In this document: one piece after another, positions 1-14,312 of the stretch
How the letters are laid out: every line of letters starts with the position of its first letter
Position numbering within the stretch: the first letter of the stretch is position 1
Origin: Gammaproteobacteria bacterium 53_120_T64
Lineage (GTDB): Bacteria; Pseudomonadota; Gammaproteobacteria; Pseudomonadales; Porticoccaceae
NCBI GenBank assembly: GCA_002162815.1
Contig: MAAT01000028.1
Coordinates: 124,001 to 188,000 of the forward strand
Direction of reading: 5' to 3'
DNA length: 64,000 bases
The notes under the pieces: model-generated
Database searches by the model: none
The model's input: the letters and a program-made list of their open reading frames with translations, nothing else
What the model was told of the DNA's origin: nothing
Translations under genes and position numbers: made by a program

Positions 1-1
1 C

Positions 2-1360
2 GGCCGGGTACAAGGCTTTAAAACGGGCTACACCGCCAGCCATGACTATCTGTTGCACTATGGCAAAAACCTGTCTTTAGCCCCCGGGGCTCAGGCGAAA
101 CTACTACTGCGCATTGACAGTCCCTACTTCGCCTCTTTTCCCGATTTTGAATGGCTGTCCGCAGCGCAGTTCAAGCACCGCGTGGCCTGGGAGAATGTGC
201 TGACACTGATCGCTTTTGGCGCTCTCCTCACCCTCGCTCTCTATAATCTCTTCATCTTTATCAGTACCCGCGACAGGGCCTATATTTACTATGCCGTTTA
301 TCTCACCGCCTATTTTTTAGCCTGGGCATTTACCTTCCATCTTCCCGCCGAGCTCTTCCACTTACACAACCTGCAACTACACTATATCCCTTTCTTTTTA
401 TTACCCATCTTGAACACCTTGTTCTATATGGAATTTCTGGAGCTAAAGAAACGCTTCCCGCGCCTAGCGGCCTGGAGTCGAGTCAACTACTGGTTGCCGC
501 TGTTATTGCTACCCAGTTGTTTTATCGCCCTGCCCTATGCACATACGCTGGCCACCCTGGCCATTAGCTATTGGCTGGCCCTCGCGCTTATTAGCTCTAT
601 TGCCTGTATGCGCAGTGGCTTTCGACCGGCGCGTTATTTCGTCTTCGCGTTTATTGCCCTGCTTGTACCGGGTATGATTATCCTGCCGGCCAACCTTGGT
701 TTGCTTCACGATCCGATTCGAAACGCAGAGCTGTTTACCTTAATCGGTGGCACCTTCGATGCGATTCTGCTGGCGTTGGCACTGGCGGACAAGATTCGAA
801 TTCTCTCCAATGACAAAGACCAGGCCCTACAAAGCCTGCAAAAAATGCTCACCATGACGCGCACCGATCACCTCACCGGCATCGCCAATCGCCACGCCTT
901 TGACCAAGACTTTAACCAGCTTTTTGATTCAGCACCCCTGGAACATGATGGCTCCCAACAGGTTCTCTACCTGATTGATTTAGACGGAATGAAGCGTGTG
1001 AACGATAACCACGGGCATTTGCGTGGCGACCAGCTACTGTGCACATTTGCCGCTCACCTCAGCAAGCTGCCAATGGATGACTGCCAGGTTTACCGCATCG
1101 GCGGCGATGAGTTCACCATTGTCGCAACGATGGATAGGAAAAGTGAAATCAATGCCGCCATTGCCCGCATTGAACAGCAACTGAGTGAAAATGACTATCG
1201 AGGGGTGGGTATCAGCTACGGCATCGCCAATGCCCACGAGTGCACATCAACCCACGAGATGATCAGCCTAGCTGACCAACGCATGTATCAATACAAAACA
1301 TCACAGCGTCAAGCCAGGGCCGATGATGCACAGACTCTGACACTGGCCACCAGGCGCTGA
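2..1360 (+). CDS. Membrane diguanylate cyclase with 7TMR-DISM module (5' truncated)
   Basis: The reading frame is open from base 2, so the start lies outside the window; the methionine at 53 is probably internal. The first visible part resembles the end of an extracellular 7TMR-DISM domain. It is followed by about seven hydrophobic segments (bases 190-800), a short linker and a C-terminal GGDEF domain. The cyclase motif RIGGDEF is intact near base 1095, and the domain start TDHLTGIANRHAF is typical, so synthesis of c-di-GMP from GTP at the inner membrane is expected. No RxxD inhibitory site is visible before GGDEF. The ligand is unknown. The family call is firm; the full length is unknown. 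Confidence 0.88.
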   Translation, partial: GRVQGFKTGYTASHDYLLHYGKNLSLAPGAQAKLLLRIDSPYFASFPDFEWLSAAQFKHRVAWENVLTLIAFGALLTLALYNLFIFISTRDRAYIYYAVYLTAYFLAWAFTFHLPAELFHLHNLQLHYIPFFLLPILNTLFYMEFLELKKRFPRLAAWSRVNYWLPLLLLPSCFIALPYAHTLATLAISYWLALALISSIACMRSGFRPARYFVFAFIALLVPGMIILPANLGLLHDPIRNAELFTLIGGTFDAILLALALADKIRILSNDKDQALQSLQKMLTMTRTDHLTGIANRHAFDQDFNQLFDSAPLEHDGSQQVLYLIDLDGMKRVNDNHGHLRGDQLLCTFAAHLSKLPMDDCQVYRIGGDEFTIVATMDRKSEINAAIARIEQQLSENDYRGVGISYGIANAHECTSTHEMISLADQRMYQYKTSQRQARADDAQTLTLATRR

Positions 1361-1397
1361 ACCCGATAAGACTCAGCGCCTCGCCGCAGCTAGTCAA

Positions 1398-4300
1398 TCA
1401 AAAGTCTGTTTCACCCTTGATGATCTTTGGATAACCAATCATTGCCCGCGAGCATTGCATGCCTGCCATCACGGCTGCCTCGACACAACCGGCATTGAGG
1501 CCGGTTTTAATCCAGTCACCGGTCATAAATAAATTATTAAAACCGGAGCCATCGGTAGCGATACGATGCTGGCTGCTATTCACCACCGACATCACATAGT
1601 GCTCGGAGGGATCAATATTGGCACGCCAGAATTGACTGTCAAAGCGCGCCTTGCCACTACCTCCGTCCGGGTCAAGCAGCCACTGCCACTTAAAATCACC
1701 GGCACTGCCGGCATAGGGCCAGAGTGCCGTTATGCGCTGATCGAGCTGCTCAAGGGCATTCTCCTTGGCCTGCTGCTTACAGCGCGCGGGAAATTCGTGG
1801 TCGGTGATAGGCGGAAAGTTATCCACCGGCATGGCACTGCAGAAATAGGAGACGTTTTGGGGCTGCTCACCGGCCGGCCAATCTTCACGACAGAGCAGTT
1901 GATCCATCGGTGCCCAGGTATCATAGGGCTCTGAAAAGCCACTCAACACAGGCTCCTGGCCCTCCGGCAGATCGCTCCAACCGAGCTCGGCGAGGTCCTT
2001 ATTCATCCAAACCTGGTAGGCTTGAGTGACCACGGTCTTGACCTCTTTGCAGGTGGTCTGCAGCGCCGGGCTTTGCGCCAATAACTGCGGACAAATTTGC
2101 GGAATCGACGCCACCGATATACCGAACACGATGCGGTCGAAATCCCTCCCCTTCTTCAGTGTCAGTGCCGGGAGTGGCTGGCCAAATTCAGCCTGATACA
2201 GCTCGGGCCAGTTACTCCAGTTAGACTCAAGGTTGACATTTTCCGCCTGTAGCAGAGCGGCTTGTTGCGGGTCTATCTGCCCATAGAGCGGCGTGCTTGG
2301 CCAGCAACCCAGGCCCTTAACATCGATTAATGGGTCGTAAAGCTCACTGCCGTCCACCACGCTCACCTGCTGCGTGAGGTGGATTTCTTCGATGCTATCG
2401 CCCTGGGGTATGAGCTCATCGACTTTGTGGAAAAACTTAAACTTCACCCCACGCTCTTTCAAGACTTCATAAATCGGTGTAAACACGGTATCGCCCATAC
2501 CCGCCTGCATCTTGTACATCACGCTGCCCTTATAACAAACGCCAATACGCATCATCGCGCGCAATATAGTGCCGGCTTCGACATTGGGCTTATTAAAGTC
2601 GCCGCCTTCGTAGGCAAATACCAAGTCGTAAAAACCGCGAATCGGTGCGGAGTGCACGCTGTACTTTGGGTTGGCGCCGTGTTTTTCCAACCAAGCATAA
2701 AAATCGATATCATTGATGACATCGAAACCTTGCTCAAACACATCGTCCTCTAACATGCCCGTCAGCACCGCTAGGCCGAGATCGATGGTAATAAAAAGAC
2801 GCCGTAACTCATCGTGACTATCGAGCTCGGCATCGATATCCCGTTCGATGGATTCTTTAATCGTCTGCAAGCCCTGCTTCAACAGTGATCGCTGCAAGGA
2901 TGAATGATCAGTGAAGACACCGGACATATTGTGAATCAGCGTGTGCAGAGTATCGATAGCACTTGAAATATCATCACCCAGCTCGTCAAAATTCTCTTTA
3001 ACTTCTTCGGCCAGTCGCTTGAACCAACTGAGGTGCTTGTCGGACTCAGAGATTTTAAGCGCCGGCACCGACTGTTCACGCAGGTCGTGAAAATCGGCCA
3101 GCAATTTTTTAATCCAACCCCATGCTGCCACGGCAATATTCCAGAGGGTAATCGACTCACTGCCATCACCCGGCTCGCCTGGTAGTGTCGGGAACATTAT
3201 CGGCCAGGTTCTCCACTCCTGATTAATATGCTCAGACAGCGCGATAAAATCATGGGGTTTAAAGGCCTCTTGCCACGTCGCGAGCGGCGCGTCACTGGGT
3301 CGGTCGAGCGCCGTGTAAGCCTCTTTCATCATCGCAAAGGCGTTTTCATAAAACCCGAACCAAATATGTAAGCCGTGCTCTTCAATGCGCTCACCGTATT
3401 CGGCATTGCGGCCACTGGCACCCTTGCCACCCAAACGCCAAGCCATTTGATAGACCGTTATATCGTATTTATTTTCCCAGCCCTCTTCATTGGTCAAATA
3501 ATAGGCGCTGGTCATGGCACTAACCCCGCCCCCCAAGATGGCAATTTTTTCGCGTTGAACCTGCGAGTTATCAACCAGCTCTTCACCCGCCGTGACCGTA
3601 AAATCAAAATACAGGTTGTAGGGCATGATCGCCGGCGAGACCCCGATGTCTAAACCCAGGGTTTTATCGAGGGGAAAACTATCGAAATTATGCACCGTCG
3701 CCTCGTATTCATAACCCAATATCGAACCGCTGTGCACCTTATCAACATTCGCTGGTGCCGTGATCAGCGCCTGGTACACCGCTTTGACACCGGCTGAATC
3801 TGGAAACTGCTTTAAAAAAATCTGCGGGATATGTGGCTTCATCAACATTGAGATCACCTCTTGCCAAGCAGCGGCATCGAGGTCTAAAAAGTCGGGCATG
3901 GAGCGAAGAACTTCAAAAGCCTGCTCCAAAAAATCAATGAAATTCTTGATCGGCCGATGGGGATTATTTTTTTTGCTGGCATTCACCTCCAGCAAGGGAT
4001 GCAGAGCCATCTCCGACTCAACAGAGAACGTCTTAAAGCCTTGAGCATTAACACTAAAGTGCAATGGATCAGCGCCCAACTCGGGAATTTGGTACTCACA
4101 CAGGTATTTTGGGTAACCGTACAACTCACGACCATTGATCATCGCCATGCCACTATCGACAAAAATATGGCAGGGATAACTATAAACGTGGGCGATATCC
4201 CCGTCATCATCGAGTTGCCCAACAATTACCCAGGTGACAATATCCACCTCGGTGATCCAGCCCTTGTCTTTATCGACCGCAACCGTAGAGTTGGCATGGC

Positions 4301-4514
4301 CAACCCGCGTAAAGGTGGTCAATACATAGGGTGAAAGTACTTTTAGCTTTAACTTGCCAGCTGCCACCATATTCAGTGTTTCATCAATGGTTTTCTGTAA
4401 AACTGGCAACTTTCCCTTGAGAAAGAAGCCGTACATATTGGCTTTTTTTAGTTGTAACGGCGTGTGCATAATTGGCGAGCCACCGGCATAGATAAAATCG
4501 GGACGATCATTCAT
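1398..4514 (-). CDS. Fusion of acetoacetate-decarboxylase-like and FAD amine-oxidase-like domains
   Basis: 1038 aa in two parts. Residues about 1-310 resemble the acetoacetate decarboxylase superfamily: the stretch GRELYGYPK (128-136) matches the active-site region, with K136 at the Schiff-base lysine position and Tyr where classical enzymes have a second Lys. From residue 323 a Rossmann FAD motif (ILGGGVSAMTSAYYL) starts a phytoene-desaturase/flavin amine-oxidase-like domain that includes RLGGKGASGRN and EHGLHIWFGFYENAF. A helical, charged insert lies at about 450-600. No signal peptide is visible. The FAD family often acts on isoprenoid or lipid substrates, but the substrate here is unknown. 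The gene stands alone, 286 bp downstream of the kinase pair on the same strand. The domain calls are good; the function is open. Confidence 0.8.
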   Translation of the reverse strand: MNDRPDFIYAGGSPIMHTPLQLKKANMYGFFLKGKLPVLQKTIDETLNMVAAGKLKLKVLSPYVLTTFTRVGHANSTVAVDKDKGWITEVDIVTWVIVGQLDDDGDIAHVYSYPCHIFVDSGMAMINGRELYGYPKYLCEYQIPELGADPLHFSVNAQGFKTFSVESEMALHPLLEVNASKKNNPHRPIKNFIDFLEQAFEVLRSMPDFLDLDAAAWQEVISMLMKPHIPQIFLKQFPDSAGVKAVYQALITAPANVDKVHSGSILGYEYEATVHNFDSFPLDKTLGLDIGVSPAIMPYNLYFDFTVTAGEELVDNSQVQREKIAILGGGVSAMTSAYYLTNEEGWENKYDITVYQMAWRLGGKGASGRNAEYGERIEEHGLHIWFGFYENAFAMMKEAYTALDRPSDAPLATWQEAFKPHDFIALSEHINQEWRTWPIMFPTLPGEPGDGSESITLWNIAVAAWGWIKKLLADFHDLREQSVPALKISESDKHLSWFKRLAEEVKENFDELGDDISSAIDTLHTLIHNMSGVFTDHSSLQRSLLKQGLQTIKESIERDIDAELDSHDELRRLFITIDLGLAVLTGMLEDDVFEQGFDVINDIDFYAWLEKHGANPKYSVHSAPIRGFYDLVFAYEGGDFNKPNVEAGTILRAMMRIGVCYKGSVMYKMQAGMGDTVFTPIYEVLKERGVKFKFFHKVDELIPQGDSIEEIHLTQQVSVVDGSELYDPLIDVKGLGCWPSTPLYGQIDPQQAALLQAENVNLESNWSNWPELYQAEFGQPLPALTLKKGRDFDRIVFGISVASIPQICPQLLAQSPALQTTCKEVKTVVTQAYQVWMNKDLAELGWSDLPEGQEPVLSGFSEPYDTWAPMDQLLCREDWPAGEQPQNVSYFCSAMPVDNFPPITDHEFPARCKQQAKENALEQLDQRITALWPYAGSAGDFKWQWLLDPDGGSGKARFDSQFWRANIDPSEHYVMSVVNSSQHRIATDGSGFNNLFMTGDWIKTGLNAGCVEAAVMAGMQCSRAMIGYPKIIKGETDF

Positions 4515-4800
4515 TCAATTATTTCCATATTTATTCGTTATTTATTCCTAACAGCATGACCGTAGCCATGGCGCAATGACCCATCAATACTGGCGGTAAC
4601 GCCGCGTACAAGTAATTGAGATTACAGCCTTAAGGGAATAATGGGCCGCCGAAAAGTACTGGCAGGATAGGCCATAGTCAATCGACAATAAGTAACATCG
4701 AGACTTGGTCGAGTTGACCGCACTATTGACAGGTAGAAACTGCGACTCCGCAAGAGCGGTAGGGTTTCATCCGTACCCAGAAATTAAGTCCACAGACACA
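4515..4800. other. Intergenic region between fusion oxidoreductase and hybrid kinase
   Basis: 286 bp between two minus-strand genes. I see no open frame of useful length, no hairpin with a T tract and no clear promoter. It must hold the leader of the fusion oxidoreductase gene and the 3' end of the kinase transcript. Confidence 0.5.
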
Positions 4801-6726
4801 CTAAAGCGATGAAATGGCCTTGCCAACTGCACGCAATAAATCACTACTCAGATAGGGTTTAATAATAAAACCCTTAAAGCCATAGTCTTGATAGTTGGCG
4901 ATGACGGGGTCGTTAGAATAACCACTCGAAACCAGCGCGCAGACTTGCGGATCAATATCTAAGAGTTTTTTAATAGTATCTCGACCGCCCATGCCCCCCG
5001 GAATGGTGAGATCCATGATTACCAGCTTAATCGCCTGACCGCACTTCATCGCCTCGCCATACACAGCCAGAGCCTGATCGCCATCGACGGCGTGAACGAC
5101 ATCGTAACCACCCACTTCGAGCATACTCTGAGTGACTTCGCGGATCATTGTCTCGTCATCCATCACCAGTATGGTGCCACTACCTTCAAGGGTCTCACGG
5201 TTGTCATCAGCAACCAGAAGAGCCGTCTTTACTGCCGGTAGGTAAATAGTAAACTTTGTGCCCTCACCCAAGCTTGATTGGCAGGAGATATGACCCGAGT
5301 GCTTATGGATAATGGAGTGAGTCACCGCCATACCCAGACCACTACCCTCGTGCTTGGTGGTAAAATAGGGGTCAAATATTTTGTCAATCTGATTTTCTGC
5401 GATACCCACGCCCTCATCCTCAATATCGATGCGAATATAGTCACCGGATTTAAGTAGCGGCACGACGTTACTGCCCTCAAGCAATACCACGTTTTCACAG
5501 AGAATACGGATCGTGCCACCCTCGGGCATGGCATGGCGGGCATTGAGGACAATATTTTGAACAACTTGGCTAATCTGCCCCTTGTCGATGGAGGCCGCCC
5601 ACAAATCGTTGTCGCGATCGATACGACAACTAATATTCGCACCGGAGAGGGTGAAATTTGCCGATTCTTGAATGACCTCAAAAATTGAGGCGAGTTCGAG
5701 AATCGGCTCCCCGCCCTTAGAAAAGGTCAGCAATTGCTGAGTTAATTTACTGGCGCGCTCCGAGGCCTTTTCAGCGGCGTCTAGAAATTTATAAGCTCGA
5801 CTGGCCGGGTCAATAAGACCCTTACTGATATTAATATTGCCCATAATACCGGTCAGTATATTGTTGAAATCATGGGCAATACCGCCAGCGAGGACGCCGA
5901 TAGAATCGAGTTTTTTGGTTTTGGCCAATTCGTCATCGATGCGATTGGCGAGGGTGACATCGCGAAAAACCAGTACGCTGCCAATGATTTTACTGTCGCG
6001 GTCGCGAATGGCGGCACCGCTATCGGCAATACTGCGCAGGGTTCCATCCCTCGCGATAAGAGCAGTATGATTGGCTAGGCCAATAATGAGTCCCGTTTTA
6101 AGGGCTTGCGCGGCCGGATTTTCACAAACTTCTTGCGTTTGTTCATTAATAATATGAAAGACTTTGCTGAGCGGTTGCCCTAGGGCCTGATCCGCTGCCC
6201 AACCGGTCAACTCCGCCGCGACCTTATTCATCATGCTCACCCGGCCCTCGAGGTCACTGGCAATCACGCCATCGCCAATGCTGCGCAAGGTGACGGCGAG
6301 AAATTCTTTTTCTTGCTCAAGCGAGTCATAGGCCTCCTTGAGTTCGCGCTGCAGACGGATTTTTTCTGCCGATGAATTGATCGCCAATAACAGCACTTTG
6401 GGATCGAGGGGCTTGCGTAAAAAGTCGACGGCCCCGACTTTAAGGGCCTCTAGGGCGCTGTCGATATCACTGTGAGCAGAAATAATAATAATTTGCACAT
6501 CGGGGTACTGCTTGCGCACGCGCCGCGCGAGATCCAGGCCATCCATTTCCGGCATACGTACATCCGTAATGAGTATATCTATACTTTGTTGACCCATCAG
6601 CTCCAGAGCGTCATGTCCCGAACCGGCGCTAGTAACATCCAATGCTTGTTTGCGTAGGCTATAAGAGAGTAAGTTTCGTATTTTTTCCTCATCATCGACA
6701 ATCATTACTTTTAGTAAGTCTTGCAT
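4801..6726 (-). CDS. Hybrid sensor histidine kinase: receiver-PAS-kinase-receiver
   Basis: 641 aa, soluble. An N-terminal receiver (about 5-120) has the acidic pair D11/D12, the phospho-acceptor D55 and K106. A short coiled linker leads to a PAS domain (about 145-260). The kinase core follows, with phospho-acceptor H285 in AHDFNN, ATPase boxes NIVLNARHAM and DEGVGI, and GSGLGMAVTH. A second receiver (about 518-640) carries D572 in IMDLTIPGG. The layout suggests a phosphorelay in which an outside kinase charges the first receiver and the core passes phosphate to the last. There is no DNA-binding output domain. It starts 56 bp after the 1895-aa kinase gene on the same strand, so the two are probably co-transcribed partners; this link is an inference. 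Confidence 0.9.
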   Translation of the reverse strand: MQDLLKVMIVDDEEKIRNLLSYSLRKQALDVTSAGSGHDALELMGQQSIDILITDVRMPEMDGLDLARRVRKQYPDVQIIIISAHSDIDSALEALKVGAVDFLRKPLDPKVLLLAINSSAEKIRLQRELKEAYDSLEQEKEFLAVTLRSIGDGVIASDLEGRVSMMNKVAAELTGWAADQALGQPLSKVFHIINEQTQEVCENPAAQALKTGLIIGLANHTALIARDGTLRSIADSGAAIRDRDSKIIGSVLVFRDVTLANRIDDELAKTKKLDSIGVLAGGIAHDFNNILTGIMGNINISKGLIDPASRAYKFLDAAEKASERASKLTQQLLTFSKGGEPILELASIFEVIQESANFTLSGANISCRIDRDNDLWAASIDKGQISQVVQNIVLNARHAMPEGGTIRILCENVVLLEGSNVVPLLKSGDYIRIDIEDEGVGIAENQIDKIFDPYFTTKHEGSGLGMAVTHSIIHKHSGHISCQSSLGEGTKFTIYLPAVKTALLVADDNRETLEGSGTILVMDDETMIREVTQSMLEVGGYDVVHAVDGDQALAVYGEAMKCGQAIKLVIMDLTIPGGMGGRDTIKKLLDIDPQVCALVSSGYSNDPVIANYQDYGFKGFIIKPYLSSDLLRAVGKAISSL

Positions 6727-6782
6727 AGAAGCGCTCTCCGACGAATTTTATCACTGGGGATGCCATTCATTTTTGATTCAGC

Positions 6783-9700
6783 CTAGCCAGCTTCGACAGG
6801 CATACTCACCTTAAACATAGCCCCCCTACCCTCCGCGCTAACGATTTCCATCTCGAAGTTAAATTCGCGCATGATGCCACTGATAATAGAGAGTCCCAGC
6901 CCCGTACCCTGGCCAGGTTGTTTCGTGGTAAAGAAGGGGTCGAGGCAGCTCTCTTTAACCTTTTCATTCATGCCCATACCATTATCTTCTACCTCTAAAA
7001 TTAAGCGCCGAGCAGGGACGTTGGGGTAGAGTTTGACACTAATACTTTTACCCTCGATCTGCGCTTTATCATCCACAGAATGGCGTGCATTCGAGAGCAA
7101 GTTGACGGCAATTTGCTGGAATTTTTGCGCGTCGACACGCACCATTGGTAGATCCCCGGCAATCTCCAGCCGCAATTCAATACTGTGCTGGTGAAACTGT
7201 TGTTGAAAAAACACCAGGCACTGGCGCAGCGGCACAGATACATCAATGGCTCTGGCCTCGGGTGAGTCGTCAAAATGTGCATAGACTCGCATGTTATGGA
7301 TAATGTCCGAGGCCTTATCAACCTCCTCGGAAATATCTTTGCTAACGGAGAGTATTTGCTCTTGCTCAAAATCTCCGCTTTCAAGCTCATCGCGAATAAT
7401 ACTGGAGGCGATTTTGATGATTTGCAGGGGTTGCCCCAACTCATGGGCAATTCCGGTCGCCATTTCACCCAGTGACGCCAAGCGCCCGGCATGGGCCAAT
7501 TGCGCCTGCTTGTCCTTTAACTCGGCCGTTCTTTCCGCCACTAGTTTTTCCAGCTCTTCCTCATTGCGCTTTTGGGCAGTAATATCGCGTCCCGATGGCA
7601 CAATGAAGATCACCTCGCCTGCGCTGTCAAAAATTGGCGTCAGGGTAAATTCGACCTCAATAAAGCGATCCTCACCTAGACACAAGCGGTAATCGCGAGT
7701 CACTGCAGCACCTTCTGCGGCAGTCTTTAAGTCGCTACGCATTTGTGCCGTGACACTGGCGGAATAGCTCCACCAGGGGAAATCAAAAAATGTTTTACCG
7801 ACAATATCACTGCTCGAATAAGACCCCATGCTCATGCTTTTTTTATTCAAAAAAAGCACATCGCCAGCGGGGCTTAATAAGCCCGCAAAACTATCGATAC
7901 CATCGAGCACCGAGCGCAATTGATGCTCTCTGGATTTTATTTCATCGGCGGCAATATGAGTTTCTAGAATGAGAGAAGCATTTTTAAGGGCGATGGCCGC
8001 CTGCGCAATAAGCAAGCCTGTCATTTCTATCTGCCGGTCGCTAAAGGCAGATTTTATCAATTTATTCTCAAGATAAATAACGCCGAGAACCTGTTGTTGA
8101 ATAATAATGGGGATACAGAGGATAGAGCGCAATTTATTTTTCGATACCGTCGCATCGCTGACAAACTCACCCTCCTCGAAGGCATTGTTGAGAATAATTG
8201 TTTCTTTTGAATGCAGACAGTAGTGCGCGATGCCCATACTTAGATTTTCTGTCGAAAAATGATTTTCATTACTAAAAGCTAGTGATATTTCGTTTTGCTT
8301 AACCCCGCTGACGGCGGGCAATAACTCATGGTTTTTATGGATCAATAGGTAGCCGGTTTGTACGCCAAGACGACTCATTACAGAATTTATAATCAATTTT
8401 AACAAATGATTAAAATTCAATTCGCCAGTGATAGCGCTAACCACCTTGAAGAGATAGTTGTACGTCAACTCATTTTCCAGATCATAGCCTTCAAGACCTT
8501 GCTGCACTGTTGGCTCGACAGTCTTTTCCGGAACAGTATTGACTAGCGCCGGGGCAAGGCTTTGAGGGCTCTCTGGGGAGTCATTAATACCTGCTATTGG
8601 CTCTTGTAATTGCTCGACTTTAGCCGCCGCACCGCAGCTCAGATAGAGCGCCCTGGCACTGTCAATATAGCTCTGCCAGGCATAGTGCTGCCGGGCTTTA
8701 AGCTGGCTGGCCAGGCGCTCATTGGCGACGGCCTCAAGTAGCACGTAACCTTGCTGGTGACTGGCGTCAATGACGTCCTGATAGGCAATGCGTATCGCCT
8801 TGAAATCACCCTGCTGGACCGTTGTTTCCGCCTCCATTAGCGCCAGGTAGGGACGGAGGATGGGGCCGTGTACCGCCCATTCACGGACTTGTTTGAGTAG
8901 CACGGCCTGACTCTCACTCTGCCAATGTTCAATATTGACGAGATATTGCGCCACATGCCAGAGCCGGTAGGCAACGGTATTGAGAATACTCGACAAGTGT
9001 TGTTTGGCACTTTCGACCTGTTGTTGCGCACGCTGTTGCTGGCCCAGAAAGTAAGCGCTAAGACTGCTAAAAACATGATAGAAAGCCAAGGGCATACTGT
9101 CTCGCCCCGGCTCCAGTTCTGCCAACAAGCGCTGTTGGCTCTGCTGAGTAAGAGCGTCGACCGTGGTGTGCAATAAGGGCTGGAGTGCGGCGTAAATGAC
9201 ACCGCCAATATGTTCGGTAAGCTGCAACTTGTATTGCCGAGCAAAGCTAATAATATTTTTTAATTCTTCTTCAAATTGATTAAGGTCACGCCCCTGCATA
9301 AATAAATAATACAGCGTTCCGCAATTTGTATAACCGGCATAGCCGATATCGCCGCTTTTTTTGCAGCTCTCTGTCGCCTGGCGGCAGCGCTCGATCATCT
9401 CCTCAATGGCTCTGGTGTTATGGGAGAGCAACCAGAGGCTTGTTGCCGTTGCCCTGGCCCGACCAAAACTATTGGGAAAGCGCTCGTTGAGTTGCTCCAT
9501 CAACTCCTCGTAGCGCGATGACAAACGATACTCACCATCAAGTTGGTAGTAGAAGGCAGCGATACCCACGGTAAAACACAGTGAGTTGCAAACGCCCAGC
9601 TCAGCGGCGAGGGCAACGGCACGGTGTCCGACCAGTCTTCCGTGCTGATTTTGCCCCGTGACATAGTAGGCCGGCGTTAACTCACCATAGACGTCCAACT

Positions 9701-12470
9701 CCATTGAGCCCCCGCGCTGAGCGATCAAGGGTGCACGGCGTATTTCCGTGAAAATATCGCGCCCATCCCGGCAAAGCTCTTCCCGAATTCTTTTAATTTC
9801 TTCTATTACTTGTTGCTCATCAACGGGGATCGGGCTATCAATCAACTTTAGCGCTTTATTAGAATAATCAATCGCCAGTAGCATTTGTCCCTGGGTACCC
9901 GCATTTACAGCGCGAGCCACCAGGCATTCGGCGTGGTCCATACTGCTTTGAGTATGCTCAATGGTGGTATCGATAATGCTGTCGACCTGCTCCACCTCAC
10001 CCAGCATCAACGCCGCCCGTGCATAGGCCTTATACAGTGAGTACATAAAGTCATAGTCAGACTGCCATAGCACCTCGAAGCCGAGATACTTGTCACACAG
10101 CGCAGCACTCTGGGCAAAGTAGTGGTGCCCCGCCACGAGTGCCAGGGCCCCGGTGGCCTGCACACCGGCGCGATAATTGAATTTTATTTCTTCTACGATT
10201 AGCTCTCGAGATGGATTCTCGGATCGCGCGGCCTCCAGATGCTCAACGATGGTATAGATCCTCTCGCTGAGCACACTGGGTTTGATCTGCAAATCTGTAT
10301 CTTCATCCACCTGTTGCTGCTCAATCAATGCCTGAGCAATATCGCTGTGACGCTGACGCCTTTCTTCGGTATTCAGAAAGCCATCAGCCGCGGCCTGCAT
10401 TTGGTCGTGAAAAAACCTTAGCTCACTCTTCTCATGAAGGAGGATTTGCTCGCTAAAAACTTTATTGAGCTGACTAAACAGCTCGCTCAACGAGAGACGA
10501 TGGATAAGCGCGAGATTTTCGGCCTGAAATTTTGCACCGAGCAGGGCGGCTGTTGCCAATAAATCGATTTGTAAGGGAGGCAGCATTTTTAACTTGTCAT
10601 AAAACAGCGCCCTGGCACTATTGGGCAGCTTAAAGTCACTCAAGGCATCGCTCTCCCAGCCCCACTGCCCCGTGTTCGAGAGCGCAATGCGCTTGTTTTG
10701 GTGTAGCCAGTGCAAGCTCTCGTTGACAAACAAAGGGTTGCCCCCGGACACCTTGTAGATCAGTTCACTGAGGTCGTGGGTGCGGGTGGCATAGGTATTG
10801 AGTATCAAGGCCACCATTTGATTGATAGAGCTCTGGCCGAGGGCCGAGAGGTGGAGTTTCAGCAGGCTCAGCTCCGAAGCCTCGATGTAATTTTCCATGG
10901 CCATTACGCCATGTTTCTCATCAACCTCATTATTGCGATAAGCGACAATCAACAATAAATAGGGGTATTTTTCGGGCTGACTATAAATAATCTTTAAGAG
11001 GTCGAAGGTGGCTTGGTCGCACCACTGTAAATCGTCAATGAAGAGTACTAAGGGATGCTCAGCGGTGGCGAAACTGGTGATGAAAGCAGTGGCAATGCCG
11101 TTAAAGCGGTTCATTTCCTCCATCGGTGACAGCGGCTGCAGGGGCTTCTGCTCACCGATAATGTATTCCAACTCCGGTATATAGTTGATAATTATTTGCC
11201 CATTGTCGCCCACTACCGCTTGAATATGCTGACGCCAGTAGTCTAGTCGTTCAACATCCTCGCTTAAGAGCTGGCGCACGAGGCGCCGAAAGGCTTCGAC
11301 CAGGCTGCTATAGGGTAGGTTTTGCGCGAACTGATTGAACTTGCCAGCGGTATAGTAGCCACGCTTGGCAACTATGGGGGCCTCCAACTCCTGTATTAGG
11401 CGCGTCTTACCGATACCCGACAAGCCAGAAATGGCAACCACACCCATAGCCCCCTTACAGACATTGGCATAGGCCTCAAGCAGTTGCTGTTGCTCGGTCT
11501 CGCGGCCAATCAGCCGCGAGGGAATATTGATGCGCTGGCTGTATTCGTGTTGGCGCAAGTCGAAGGTTGCAATACCCCGCGTCGCCCCGCTATCACTGCT
11601 TACCGCACCCTGCGACTCAGTTGTTGCGCGCAGCCCTGCCCGGCAGGTGCTCAGATCGGCACTGAGACCGGCGGCACTTTGATAGCGCTGCTCGGGCTCT
11701 TTCTTCAGCAACAGAGCAATAATATCACTGACAATTGGTGGACAGCTGGGGTTTAACTGGCTCAGCGCCTGTGGCTCTTCCGCCAGATGGGAGTGGATAA
11801 TATTCAGGGCATCATCGGCATAAAACAACGGCTGGCCGCTGAGACACTCATACAGCACTGCCCCAACGGCATACAGGTCACAGCAGTAGTTGATATCCAT
11901 GCGAATTCGCCCCGTTTGCTCGGGGGCGATATAGGGTAGGCTTTCCCGTCGGTATTGCTCATTTTGAATAAATTGGCTAATCAGCATGCCGTCGAGTACC
12001 CGCACATCATCGACGACCTCAATGCGGATGGGATTTTCCGCAATCAAGATATTATTGGGTTTAATGCCCTTGTGAATAAGACTGCGCTGATGGCGCTCGA
12101 CAAGGCAGTCGCTGAGCGCGATGGCAATATCCAGGAAAGTGGCAATATCGACCGTTTTTTGGCTTTCAAGCCAGTTACGCAGTGGTTGTGCGCGCGGGTA
12201 GGGCTGCGTCAAACAGATCTCCTTGCCGCCATTACTGTGTAACTCGGGAATGGTCAGGTCGGGGATCTGTTGCTCGCGCAAGTAAACCAACTGTTGTTCG
12301 ATGTGTTCTTGAATGCCATCAAGTGCGAGGTTGGCGCGAATTTTTTTGACGAGATAGCTACGCCCATTACTTTTATCTTCCGCCAAAAACACCTCTGCCG
12401 CGAGGCTGTCACCCAACTTATTGACGATACTCAACTCACTGGAATTGCCCCAGCCGCAAACTGTACTCAT
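6783..12470 (-). CDS. Giant multi-domain sensor kinase: STK-like, AAA ATPase, GAF, PAS, histidine kinase
   Basis: 1895 aa. Residues about 10-280 have a Ser/Thr-kinase fold, recognisable from YIAPEQTGRIRMD and DLYAVGAVLYECLSGQPLF. An AAA/NTPase domain starts with IGRETE, with Walker A GLSGIGKT (K355) and Walker B LVLFIDDLQWCD. A long helical, TPR-like region (about 650-1300) leads to GAF (about 1340-1500) and PAS (about 1515-1635). A histidine kinase core ends the protein (H1676 in AHELGQPL; ATPase boxes NLLSNARHSV and GTGLGLSII). No membrane segment is visible. The family is known from cyanobacteria and proteobacteria as multi-sensor multi-kinases. Oddly, the Ser/Thr-kinase loop reads HKGIKPNN (133-140), without the catalytic Asp, and DFG is replaced by DDV near 154, so this part is probably a pseudokinase. 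Confidence 0.88.
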   Translation of the reverse strand: MSTVCGWGNSSELSIVNKLGDSLAAEVFLAEDKSNGRSYLVKKIRANLALDGIQEHIEQQLVYLREQQIPDLTIPELHSNGGKEICLTQPYPRAQPLRNWLESQKTVDIATFLDIAIALSDCLVERHQRSLIHKGIKPNNILIAENPIRIEVVDDVRVLDGMLISQFIQNEQYRRESLPYIAPEQTGRIRMDINYCCDLYAVGAVLYECLSGQPLFYADDALNIIHSHLAEEPQALSQLNPSCPPIVSDIIALLLKKEPEQRYQSAAGLSADLSTCRAGLRATTESQGAVSSDSGATRGIATFDLRQHEYSQRINIPSRLIGRETEQQQLLEAYANVCKGAMGVVAISGLSGIGKTRLIQELEAPIVAKRGYYTAGKFNQFAQNLPYSSLVEAFRRLVRQLLSEDVERLDYWRQHIQAVVGDNGQIIINYIPELEYIIGEQKPLQPLSPMEEMNRFNGIATAFITSFATAEHPLVLFIDDLQWCDQATFDLLKIIYSQPEKYPYLLLIVAYRNNEVDEKHGVMAMENYIEASELSLLKLHLSALGQSSINQMVALILNTYATRTHDLSELIYKVSGGNPLFVNESLHWLHQNKRIALSNTGQWGWESDALSDFKLPNSARALFYDKLKMLPPLQIDLLATAALLGAKFQAENLALIHRLSLSELFSQLNKVFSEQILLHEKSELRFFHDQMQAAADGFLNTEERRQRHSDIAQALIEQQQVDEDTDLQIKPSVLSERIYTIVEHLEAARSENPSRELIVEEIKFNYRAGVQATGALALVAGHHYFAQSAALCDKYLGFEVLWQSDYDFMYSLYKAYARAALMLGEVEQVDSIIDTTIEHTQSSMDHAECLVARAVNAGTQGQMLLAIDYSNKALKLIDSPIPVDEQQVIEEIKRIREELCRDGRDIFTEIRRAPLIAQRGGSMELDVYGELTPAYYVTGQNQHGRLVGHRAVALAAELGVCNSLCFTVGIAAFYYQLDGEYRLSSRYEELMEQLNERFPNSFGRARATATSLWLLSHNTRAIEEMIERCRQATESCKKSGDIGYAGYTNCGTLYYLFMQGRDLNQFEEELKNIISFARQYKLQLTEHIGGVIYAALQPLLHTTVDALTQQSQQRLLAELEPGRDSMPLAFYHVFSSLSAYFLGQQQRAQQQVESAKQHLSSILNTVAYRLWHVAQYLVNIEHWQSESQAVLLKQVREWAVHGPILRPYLALMEAETTVQQGDFKAIRIAYQDVIDASHQQGYVLLEAVANERLASQLKARQHYAWQSYIDSARALYLSCGAAAKVEQLQEPIAGINDSPESPQSLAPALVNTVPEKTVEPTVQQGLEGYDLENELTYNYLFKVVSAITGELNFNHLLKLIINSVMSRLGVQTGYLLIHKNHELLPAVSGVKQNEISLAFSNENHFSTENLSMGIAHYCLHSKETIILNNAFEEGEFVSDATVSKNKLRSILCIPIIIQQQVLGVIYLENKLIKSAFSDRQIEMTGLLIAQAAIALKNASLILETHIAADEIKSREHQLRSVLDGIDSFAGLLSPAGDVLFLNKKSMSMGSYSSSDIVGKTFFDFPWWSYSASVTAQMRSDLKTAAEGAAVTRDYRLCLGEDRFIEVEFTLTPIFDSAGEVIFIVPSGRDITAQKRNEEELEKLVAERTAELKDKQAQLAHAGRLASLGEMATGIAHELGQPLQIIKIASSIIRDELESGDFEQEQILSVSKDISEEVDKASDIIHNMRVYAHFDDSPEARAIDVSVPLRQCLVFFQQQFHQHSIELRLEIAGDLPMVRVDAQKFQQIAVNLLSNARHSVDDKAQIEGKSISVKLYPNVPARRLILEVEDNGMGMNEKVKESCLDPFFTTKQPGQGTGLGLSIISGIMREFNFEMEIVSAEGRGAMFKVSMPVEAG

Positions 12471-12983
12471 GCTATAAACCCTTGAGGTTTACCGCTGTCA
12501 TGGCGGTAGACAACACCAGCACTCAACGGATGGGCGCTCTGGTCGCCCGACTTACCTATTTGCATCTAAAAAGTATAGGTAAGGCGGGGTGAAATTACCA
12601 AAAGACCAACCCAGGGAGAGTCCGTTCCGCCTCGGTAAAATAGCGCCGACGAATGCACCCACCGCAAGGGTGGGTAGAGTAGTGGGGTTTACAGAGATGC
12701 GGCGCTAGGTTGAGTGCCGGCTAGCGCTGGTCGAGTGCTCGGAGAACCCAGAACAATCGACCTCATACCAGCATTGAGCAAGGCACAAGCGCTAGAGCCC
12801 CTATCGCGGTTTTCAATCAACTCAATACGCAGCTATTACAAATTTGATTATCCGCTGCCCAAGAAACGCGAAAATCACGCCCGTCCATGGTGATGATAGG
12901 TCGCCAAGCCATCAATGCCTTCGAGGGGAAAAGGCGTACACCTCCCCCTTTCTGTGATACTGGCGCGTTAACGAAGAGGCCCC
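12471..12983. other. Intergenic region upstream of giant kinase gene
   Basis: 513 bp without a convincing gene. It holds a 9-bp inverted repeat at 12551-12583 and a perfect 7-bp hairpin (arms 12657-12663 and 12669-12675, loop GCAAG). The hairpin has no T tract on either strand, so it is not a standard terminator. A 20-codon frame at 12530-12592 on the plus strand has no ribosome binding site. The promoter of the kinase operon should be near 12480-12600, but I cannot place it with confidence. Confidence 0.5.
12551..12583. repeat. Inverted repeat, possible operator of kinase operon
   Basis: CTTACCTAT (12551-12559) is the exact reverse complement of ATAGGTAAG (12575-12583), with a 15-nt A-rich spacer. 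It lies 81 bp upstream of the start of the 1895-aa kinase. The spacing suits a dimeric regulator or a small stem-loop. No regulator can be named. Confidence 0.35.
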
Positions 12984-14312
12984 CTACTTAGCGGCAAGGG
13001 GGCTAGCCCAGAGATCGTATTCATCGGCATGCTCTACCAACACGGTCAATTTATCACCGGGCCGCAGGTCACACTCACCGTTCAAATAGACATTGCCGTC
13101 AATGTCGGGGGCATCGGCCCAAGAACGGGCGACGGCACCTTCTTCATCCACTTCATCGACCAAGACTTCAATGGTGCGACCGACCTTGGCGGCCAATCGC
13201 GCCGTGCTAATAACCTGCTGAGTCGCCATCAAGCGCTCCCAGCGCTCCTGCTTAAGCTCTTCAGGTACCGGATTGGCCAGCTCGTTGGCTCGGGCTCCGG
13301 CCACGGCTTCATATTTAAAGCAACCGACACGGTCGAGCTGGGCTTCCCCCAACCAATCGAGCAAGTGTTTAAAGTCATCCTCGGTCTCGCCGGGAAAACC
13401 GGTAATGAAGGTGCTGCGCAGGGTCAGATCGGGGCATATTTCACGCCAGCGCTGGATCCGCTCCAGGGTTTTTTCTTGATGGCCCGGGCGCTTCATCGCC
13501 TTCAGTACAGAGGGACTGGAGTGCTGAAAGGGAATATCCAGATAGGGCAGAATCTTGCCCTCGGCCATCAGTGGAATGACATTATCGACATGGGGGTAGG
13601 GGTAGACATAGTGCAGACGCACCCAGACATCCATATCGCCAAGGGCCTCGCACAATTCAAGCATCCGCGATTTCACCGGTTTGCCCTGCCAGAAGCCGGT
13701 GCGATATTTAATATCGACACCGTAGGCGCTGGTGTCCTGAGAGATCACCAGCAATTCGCGGGTGCCGGATTCCACCAAGCGCTGGGCCTCATCGAGCACT
13801 TCGCCAACGGGGCGGCTAACCAGTTTGCCGCGCAGATCGGGAATAATACAAAAGCTGCAACTGTGATTACAGCCCTCGGAGATCTTCAAATAGGAGTAGT
13901 GACGGGGCGTTAGCTTAATGCCCTGAGCAGGCACCAAGTCGGTATAGGGATCGTGCTCGACAGGCGGCGGAGCAATCGTCTCATGGACGGCGCTGACCAC
14001 CTCCTCGTATTGATGGGCTCCACTCACGGCCAGCACACCGGGGTGGGCGGCACGGATAGCCTCCTCGTCCTGGCCCATGCAGCCGGTGACAATCACCCGA
14101 CCATTTTCGGCCATTGCCTCGCCAATGGCATCGAGGGACTCCTGTTTGGCGCTGTCGAGAAAACCACAGGTATTGACCACCACCACGTCCGCGTCGGCGT
14201 AACTGGGGCTGACATCGTAGCCATCGAGCTTTAACTGCGTGAGGATACGCTCGGAGTCAACTAGGGCCTTGGGACAACCGAGGCTAATAAAACCAACTTT
14301 GGGATTTGCCAT
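12984..14312 (-). CDS. rimO: Ribosomal protein uS12 methylthiotransferase RimO
   Basis: Radical-SAM enzyme that adds a methylthio group to the conserved aspartate of ribosomal protein uS12. The N-terminal MTTase domain opens with [19 protein letters not shown] and has further cluster cysteines in VVNTCGF and VTGCMGQ. The radical-SAM cluster is CNHSCSFC near residue 150, and a C-terminal TRAM region ends the protein. The 442-aa length is normal. I start at the ATG at 14312; a GTG directly before it is possible, and TAGGT lies upstream. Single gene. Confidence 0.97.

Follow-up and report, generated by a model that had tools for sequence, protein, structure and literature searches.

Acetoacetate decarboxylase (ADC) and its relatives Swit_4259, the S. 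bingchenggensis aldolase-dehydratase, and MppR (structures 3bgt, 5upb, 4zbt/6eej, and 4jm3) form one superfamily, and the plant-type phytoene desaturases, represented by 5mog, belong to a wider superfamily of flavoenzymes. A gene in a 64,000-nucleotide stretch of contig MAAT01000028.1 from Gammaproteobacteria bacterium 53_120_T64 (hereafter the window, meaning the whole stretch analysed) joins relatives of both in one chain. Its modelled N-terminal domain shares the ADC fold over the whole domain together with the Schiff-base lysine position, and its C-terminal flavin adenine dinucleotide (FAD) domain shares the phytoene desaturase fold, an FAD-binding N-terminus with a GGKGASGR segment, and a C-terminal GDW segment. 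The ADC-type domain and the FAD enzyme recur as a pair in distantly related bacteria, whether fused (in both orders) or encoded side by side, and signalling genes recurrently flank the enzyme, a neighbourhood that the first-pass annotation of the window missed. The reading proposed here, which we consider evenly poised, is that the fusion combines two enzymatic functions and acts on a hydrophobic substrate, probably of isoprenoid type, within a module placed under or beside a second-messenger sensor. The architecture, lysine, modelled folds, pairing, and signalling neighbours are computed; the substrate class, reaction, and direction of coupling we infer.

The fused chain and its two folds

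The fusion gene (Table 1) runs on the minus strand from ATG to stop through 1038 codons with zero internal stops, and its whole-genome copy is identical and in the same frame. A single chain with the same domain order is found in six other assemblies (L003–L008 in our numbering of loci), with 58–76% identity to the window protein. The first-pass annotation, which gave no strand, was thus right to read one 1038-residue chain, and the search for the same fusion elsewhere that it proposed has been productive. A frame error or assembly artefact uniting two genes could be suspected from the Dyella-type loci, which have two separate genes overlapping by a few bases, but with single chains in six other assemblies and a continuous frame we rule it out, leaving such an artefact scarcely credible.

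When the whole chain was searched with phmmer against PDB sequences, one match came back, judged to be chance (E 0.52), so profiles and fold comparison were needed. The ADC family PF06314 matches residues 110–176 with 32.8 bits against a curated cut-off of 29.8. Modelled alone with AlphaFold2, residues 1–312 reach a mean predicted local distance difference test score (pLDDT) of 88.3, and the closest solved fold is 3bgt_D (Z 22.6, 234 residues, 3.2 Å), with Foldseek matching the model to solved ADCs at E 1e-13. Matches at Z 19.1–22.6 comprise 3bgt, 3c8w, 3bh2, the S. bingchenggensis aldolase-dehydratase, Swit_4259, MppR, and 3cmb, after which Z falls to 5.8 for the next unrelated entry; the ADC fold predicted before residue 310 by the first-pass annotation is therefore present in the model. 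The lysine that it singled out, K136, ends the motif GRELYGYPK (residues 128–136), is the same residue in all 25 ADC domains aligned, at identities down to 17%, and falls in a segment that the profile match aligns with GRELWGFPKK of 3bgt, in keeping with its assignment to the Schiff-base position. Only five columns of that alignment are invariant (G128, G133, K136, Q236, and D304). The second lysine of classical ADCs, which we take to be K116 in the Clostridium enzyme, is not kept, with Y137 in the window protein at the place of the second lysine of the KK pair in 3bgt. The N-terminal half is predicted from its fold and motif to belong to the ADC superfamily; acetoacetate decarboxylation is not claimed.

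The FAD-binding second domain, whose FAD-binding site the first-pass annotation placed from residue 323, is likewise borne out, with NAD_binding_8 at residues 326–398 (40.6 bits, cut-off 21.9), a DAO match that begins at 323 and lies below its cut-off, and a GGG motif from residue 328. Pfam also places a piece of MCRA at residues 675–780 (25.6 bits, cut-off 23). The full-chain model has a pLDDT of 84.1 and a predicted template modelling score of 0.71, with pLDDT below 50 for residues 478–536 of an insertion in the FAD domain. The best fold match of the FAD part is 5mog, the rice phytoene desaturase (Z 27.0, 451 of 466 residues aligned, 2.8 Å), which Foldseek also puts first, and protoporphyrinogen oxidases follow at Z 24.1. 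Amino_oxidase (PF01593) is unlisted for the window protein and above cut-off in the homologues L017, L022, and L024. All NCBIfam matches are weak and far under their cut-offs, with zeta-carotene desaturase and HpnE in the lead: the carotenoid desaturase models TIGR02732 and TIGR02731 give 36.4 bits against an equivalog cut-off of 622 and 20 against 569, and HpnE (TIGR03467) gives 30.9 against 283. The C-terminal half is accordingly placed, from profiles and model, in the phytoene desaturase/amine oxidase superfamily and in none of the named NCBIfam families, and the modelled phytoene desaturase fold does not establish function. The earlier description of this half as amine-oxidase-like stands at the level of the superfamily and fails at any closer one, the nearest solved fold being a phytoene desaturase.

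Recurrence of the pair

A locus scan with one genome per species yielded 22 loci, and 46 loci clustered at 50% FAD-domain identity form 17 clusters, in 10 of which an ADC is fused or adjacent to the FAD enzyme. This count contradicts the premise of the first-pass annotation that two such enzymes are not normally found together. The ADC-then-FAD chain occurs in L003–L008 and, truncated at a contig end, in L050; the FAD-then-ADC chain occurs in L017 and L021, in L057 with its close relatives L058, L062, L083, and L084, and in L067 and L079. These opposite orders imply at least two separate joinings. Separate neighbouring genes are found in nine Dyella-type loci, where they overlap shortly, and in L048, L056, Catenovulum L065, and Azospirillum L066. 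In L024 and L053–L055 the two lie in a larger cluster, in the order FAD enzyme, small protein, polyprenyl synthetase, saccharopine-dehydrogenase-like protein, ADC, and L022 and L023 have the same cluster without a recognised small protein.

The FAD family is rare. At E 1e-30, and counting the genome at the centre of each search, members turned up in 3 of 369 genomes when the class was scanned, in 12 of 246 for another order, in 5 of 398 for the phylum, and in 4 of 296 for the phylum that includes a Thermoleophilaceae genome. Two loci come from metagenome bins labelled Deinococcales (L006) and Eremiobacteraeota (L011), the latter of which falls inside the Dyella group by clustering and may be misbinned. 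Annotated plasmid records name the pair generically, as ‘NAD(P)-binding protein’ and ‘acetoacetate decarboxylase family protein’; what is filed under such names is a recurrent unit that has survived fusion in opposite orders.

Several loci carry a second ADC-like gene or FAD enzyme. The biosynthetic-looking unit of L053 (8729–16152), L054, L055, and L024 is accompanied in L053–L055 by a second ADC-like gene. In L048 (13607–19338), from a gammaproteobacterial genome (G190) with no PF00494 gene, two FAD-enzyme paralogues flank one ADC gene and a carotenoid oxygenase follows, and in L066 (16748–18757) another FAD enzyme from this superfamily lies two genes from the Azospirillum pair.

Signalling genes beside the enzyme

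A signalling gene of the GGDEF, class III cyclase, TIR/SLOG-like, or kinase-AAA sensor kind flanks the enzyme in 14 of the 17 clusters, against ~10% expected per locus (binomial 3e-12, indicative only). Over the 46 loci, 39 of 90 immediate flanking genes are of five signalling types, compared with 21 of 424 other genes; the Fisher P of 6e-19 is likewise only indicative, the loci being related and the seeds of the neighbour search having come in part from the neighbours themselves. For the cluster tally, L022/L023 and L066 were entered manually on the basis of coordinates or record annotation, spurious frames having been called between the genes, and these loci score as unflanked in the gene count, from which L024, L051, and L063 (the same places as L061, L022, and L020) were omitted. 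As a Pfam control, 70 genes at least three places off were drawn and, after two (the cyclase and ADC of L022) were dropped, 68 were scanned; receiver domains (2/68) are the sole signalling family with at least two members. This control covers the 25 commonest of the 120 families seen, so that for GGDEF, cyclase, TIR_2, and AAA_16 the count has an upper limit of 1/68 apiece rather than a demonstrated 0.

In the window the signalling partner is a 7TMR-DISM/GGDEF diguanylate cyclase, its GGDEF motif intact, which is the sole 7TMR-DISM protein found in the genome. Its Pfam domains were read from the orthologues in L003, L006, and L008, with the window copy identified by similarity and a genome search. 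A 7TMR-DISM gene adjoins the enzyme in 16 of the 19 loci of the window's cluster (the window, L003–L008, and the nine Dyella-type loci), and at 15 of these it is convergent, L006 being divergent; the contig of L050 ends before the position could be seen. Pairwise identities of the cyclase and of the FAD domain correlate at r 0.98 over the 16 loci and 0.91 over the 7 fused loci, a correlation that would also follow from shared genome descent alone.

Other lineages have other partners. Class III cyclases, some of them lacking a recognised AAA part, flank L022, L023, L067, and L079–L081; kinase-AAA-GAF proteins with a cyclase, histidine kinase, or GGDEF output flank L020, L066, L068, L077, and L082; and TIR-TPR and SLOG-like proteins flank L053–L060, L062, L083, and L084, some loci having just one kind. 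We take the latter proteins to be SLOG-like from their GVTGHRP motif, and Pfam gives no match to them save a weak DUF4231 in one. In L057 (4592–8086), L058, L062, L083, and L084 the TIR-TPR gene and a gene for a 600-residue protein that starts with GVTGHRP adjoin the FAD-ADC fusion and a CruF-like gene. A small ion-channel-like protein recurs near the FAD gene in L053 (6233–6718, PF07885) and L060 (6735–7289).

The 1895-residue kinase encoded two genes from the window fusion has homologues next to the Azospirillum enzyme pair and next to the Rufibacter FAD gene, the Azospirillum neighbour being 25% identical over 1891 columns, nearly the full length; beside the other core loci the kinase was not seen. 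An Rfam scan of window positions 1–13000 gave 0 matches, and promoter-like (12 vs 6.9 in shuffles) and terminator-like (8 vs 6.0) counts were not used.

Table 1. Features of the fusion gene and its neighbours, in window coordinates
Feature	Position	Strand	Basis or remark
ADC-FAD fusion gene, 1038 aa	1398..4514	-	one frame; six single-chain relatives
N-terminal ADC-fold domain (predicted), residues 1-312	3579..4514	-	Pfam, AlphaFold2 model, fold matches
K136 codon, predicted Schiff-base lysine in GRELYGYPK	4107..4109	-	alignment, profile match
C-terminal FAD oxidoreductase domain, residues 319-1038, predicted phytoene-desaturase-like fold	1401..3560	-	Pfam, full-chain model, fold matches
Glycine-rich FAD-binding motif GGGVSA, residues 328-333	3516..3533	-	
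FAD-domain insertion, variable, mostly helical, ~residues 457-600	2715..3146	-	
7TMR-DISM/GGDEF diguanylate cyclase, convergent	1..1360	+	start upstream of window; 587-aa frame in L025
Receiver-PAS-histidine kinase-receiver protein	4801..6726	-	next gene upstream of fusion, same direction, 286-nt gap
Ser/Thr kinase-AAA_16-GAF-PAS-histidine kinase, 1895 aa	6783..12470	-	two genes upstream of fusion, same direction

Substrate, coupling, and comparison with known systems

Isoprenoid genes recur near the pair in other lineages. Polyprenyl synthetase (PF00348) lies beside L053 (175 bits) and L080 (187 bits) and, by similarity, in L022–L024, L054, and L055; a CruF-like gene (PF04240) adjoins L057 and L058 and, by similarity, L062, L083, and L084; and an RPE65-type carotenoid oxygenase is near L024 (357 bits) and, by similarity, L048. 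These partner genes and the phytoene desaturase fold suggest an isoprenoid-type substrate, and give indirect support to the imine chemistry on a lipid-like substrate proposed in the first-pass annotation. A loose parallel is an ADC family protein tabulated among Anabaena lipid-droplet (cyanoglobule) proteins in PMC12923008. Two narrower ideas fared less well. The idea that the enzyme of the window organism acts directly on a carotenoid, squalene, or a hopanoid is weakened by the absence of squalene/phytoene synthase (PF00494), and a carotenoid oxygenase as general partner is rejected, such a gene being carried by 10 of the 25 genomes searched, by none of ten core-clade genomes (G000, G048, G369–G374, G376, and G377), and in two copies by G375, the genome of L009 in the window's cluster.

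In the mechanism envisaged, the FAD domain would dehydrogenate or oxidise a chain, yielding or exposing a conjugated carbonyl; K136 would take up this carbonyl, whether of the substrate or of the product, as an iminium. The ADC barrel would then carry out C–C chemistry, either decarboxylation or a retro-aldol or aldol-dehydratase reaction, as in Schiff-base relatives of ADC. This two-enzyme module would have been put repeatedly under or beside a sensor, a 7TMR-DISM diguanylate cyclase here and class III cyclases, kinase-AAA proteins, or TIR/SLOG-like proteins elsewhere, with the messenger probably controlling the enzyme rather than the reverse.

We favour that direction because in one lineage a cyclic-nucleotide-binding domain is fused to the ADC. 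The L020 gene that follows the FAD enzyme codes for such a domain (43.4 bits) joined to an ADC (50.6 bits), followed by a kinase-AAA-GAF-cyclase gene, and in this lineage messenger control of the enzyme is the simpler reading. Relatives of this fusion occur in 7 of 282 genomes of the phylum of L020, the centre genome included (E 1e-15), with a kinase-AAA-type gene near L096, L097, and L099–L101 in the seven regions examined; L102 has no cyclic-nucleotide-binding match, and an internal stop is present in 2 of 8 places. Fusions of this type with the motif GRELYGFPK, in L020 (5440–6813), L096, and L098–L101, are usually near a kinase-AAA-type sensor gene, and in L099 an Amino_oxidase-type FAD gene unmatched by the family profile lies between the fusion and that gene.

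Several observations weigh against a sensor-coupled isoprenoid enzyme. A Pfam scan of the window fusion recognises no second-messenger-binding domain, so for the window itself the coupling may run either way. No linked ADC is recognised in 7 of the 17 clusters (L077, L078, L080, L081, L059/L060, L068, and L082), three clusters have no signalling flank (L017/L021, L048, and L078), and Massilia L009 and Catenovulum L065 have no 7TMR-DISM gene despite belonging to the window's cluster. The signalling partner varies by lineage, and hence no one messenger is common to all. The window genome, which is 93.6% complete, has no PF00494 gene, a family present in 22 of the 25 genomes searched and missing also from G374, the closest relative, and G190; it has no carotenoid oxygenase of family PF03055 and two PF00348 polyprenyl synthases, no more, so that a dedicated synthase of that kind is not seen either. 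A dedicated isoprenoid pathway is thus not visible there, and a carotenoid substrate cannot be assumed in this organism.

Such points leave room for an ordinary two-step lipid or terpenoid enzyme, performing oxidation and then decarboxylation or aldol-type cleavage, with the signalling genes as regulators of no special significance or as hitchhikers. This explanation fits two domains that each have an enzyme fold, the biosynthetic genes present in several clusters, and messenger classes that vary by lineage; we nonetheless regard it as possible rather than probable, given flanks so far above the per-locus expectation, a neighbour that is the only protein of its kind in the genome, and the fusion of a cyclic-nucleotide-binding domain to ADC in the L020 lineage. 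The enzyme might instead make a small diffusible or membrane signal detected by the neighbouring sensor, a notion that draws on the receptor-type 7TMR-DISM protein with its extracellular domain and on the congruent divergence of receptor and enzyme. We think it unlikely, since many partners are soluble-type proteins, the ADC fusion of L020 points the opposite way, and 7TMR-DISMED2 is predicted to sense carbohydrates (PMC8846402).

Anti-phage or conflict systems typically contain TIR, SLOG-like, and cyclase proteins, and the FAD-ADC enzyme could be the effector of such a system. The TIR-TPR and SLOG-like neighbours fit that idea, as do the weak matches that PADLOC gives for the TIR and cyclase proteins. 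PADLOC, however, matches none of the fusion (0 families), the SLOG-like proteins, the small protein, the second ADC, or the diguanylate cyclase, and with isoprenoid genes in several clusters we hold a defence role to be very improbable. A bolder variant, to which we assign a low likelihood, is an isoprenoid-derived signalling circuit, in which an aldehyde or ketone of polyene or terpenoid type would sit in the ADC barrel, bound to K136 as a protonated Schiff base, while the desaturase domain modifies it, the product or chromophore-like adduct being read or gated by interchangeable messenger proteins (cyclic di-GMP, cyclic AMP-type, or TIR/SLOG). If true, it would parallel retinoid or apocarotenoid signalling, with a decarboxylase fold as its base.

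If the coupling of enzyme and sensor preferred here is real, a defined enzyme set may be switched by cyclic di-GMP, cyclic nucleotides, or TIR-type signals, and would offer a route to the signals sensed by 7TMR-DISM receptors and kinase-AAA sensors. The pair lies beside second-messenger sensors in Pseudomonadota and in genomes of the phylum that includes a Thermoleophilaceae genome, as does an FAD gene by itself on a Bacteroidota plasmid. The recurrence of the pair and its usual siting near genes for making or using second messengers suggest a lipid-modifying pathway, so far uncharacterised, with a tie to cell signalling. No account of the ADC-FAD fusion or its neighbourhood was found in the literature searched, which covered few subscription papers.

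Compared with the ADC superfamily, the window domain is just 9–16% identical in structural alignments, carries an LKQF..D/YQA block conserved in its own subfamily, has a tyrosine at the second-lysine site of 3bgt, and is joined to an FAD enzyme. The FAD domain is 16% identical to 5mog and ~250 residues longer than phytoene desaturase, with a variable helical insertion. The neighbouring cyclase shares the 7TMR-DISMED2, 7TM, and GGDEF domains and intact GGDEF motif of other 7TMR-DISM diguanylate cyclases, for which no such gene partnership turned up in the literature searched. The Ser/Thr kinase-AAA-GAF-histidine kinase/cyclase architecture is common to the window protein and its Azospirillum and Rufibacter counterparts, which differ from such sensors in general in their recurrent siting beside ADC or FAD genes. 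We rate the system as known kinds of enzyme in a new combination, with an unusual link to second-messenger signalling.

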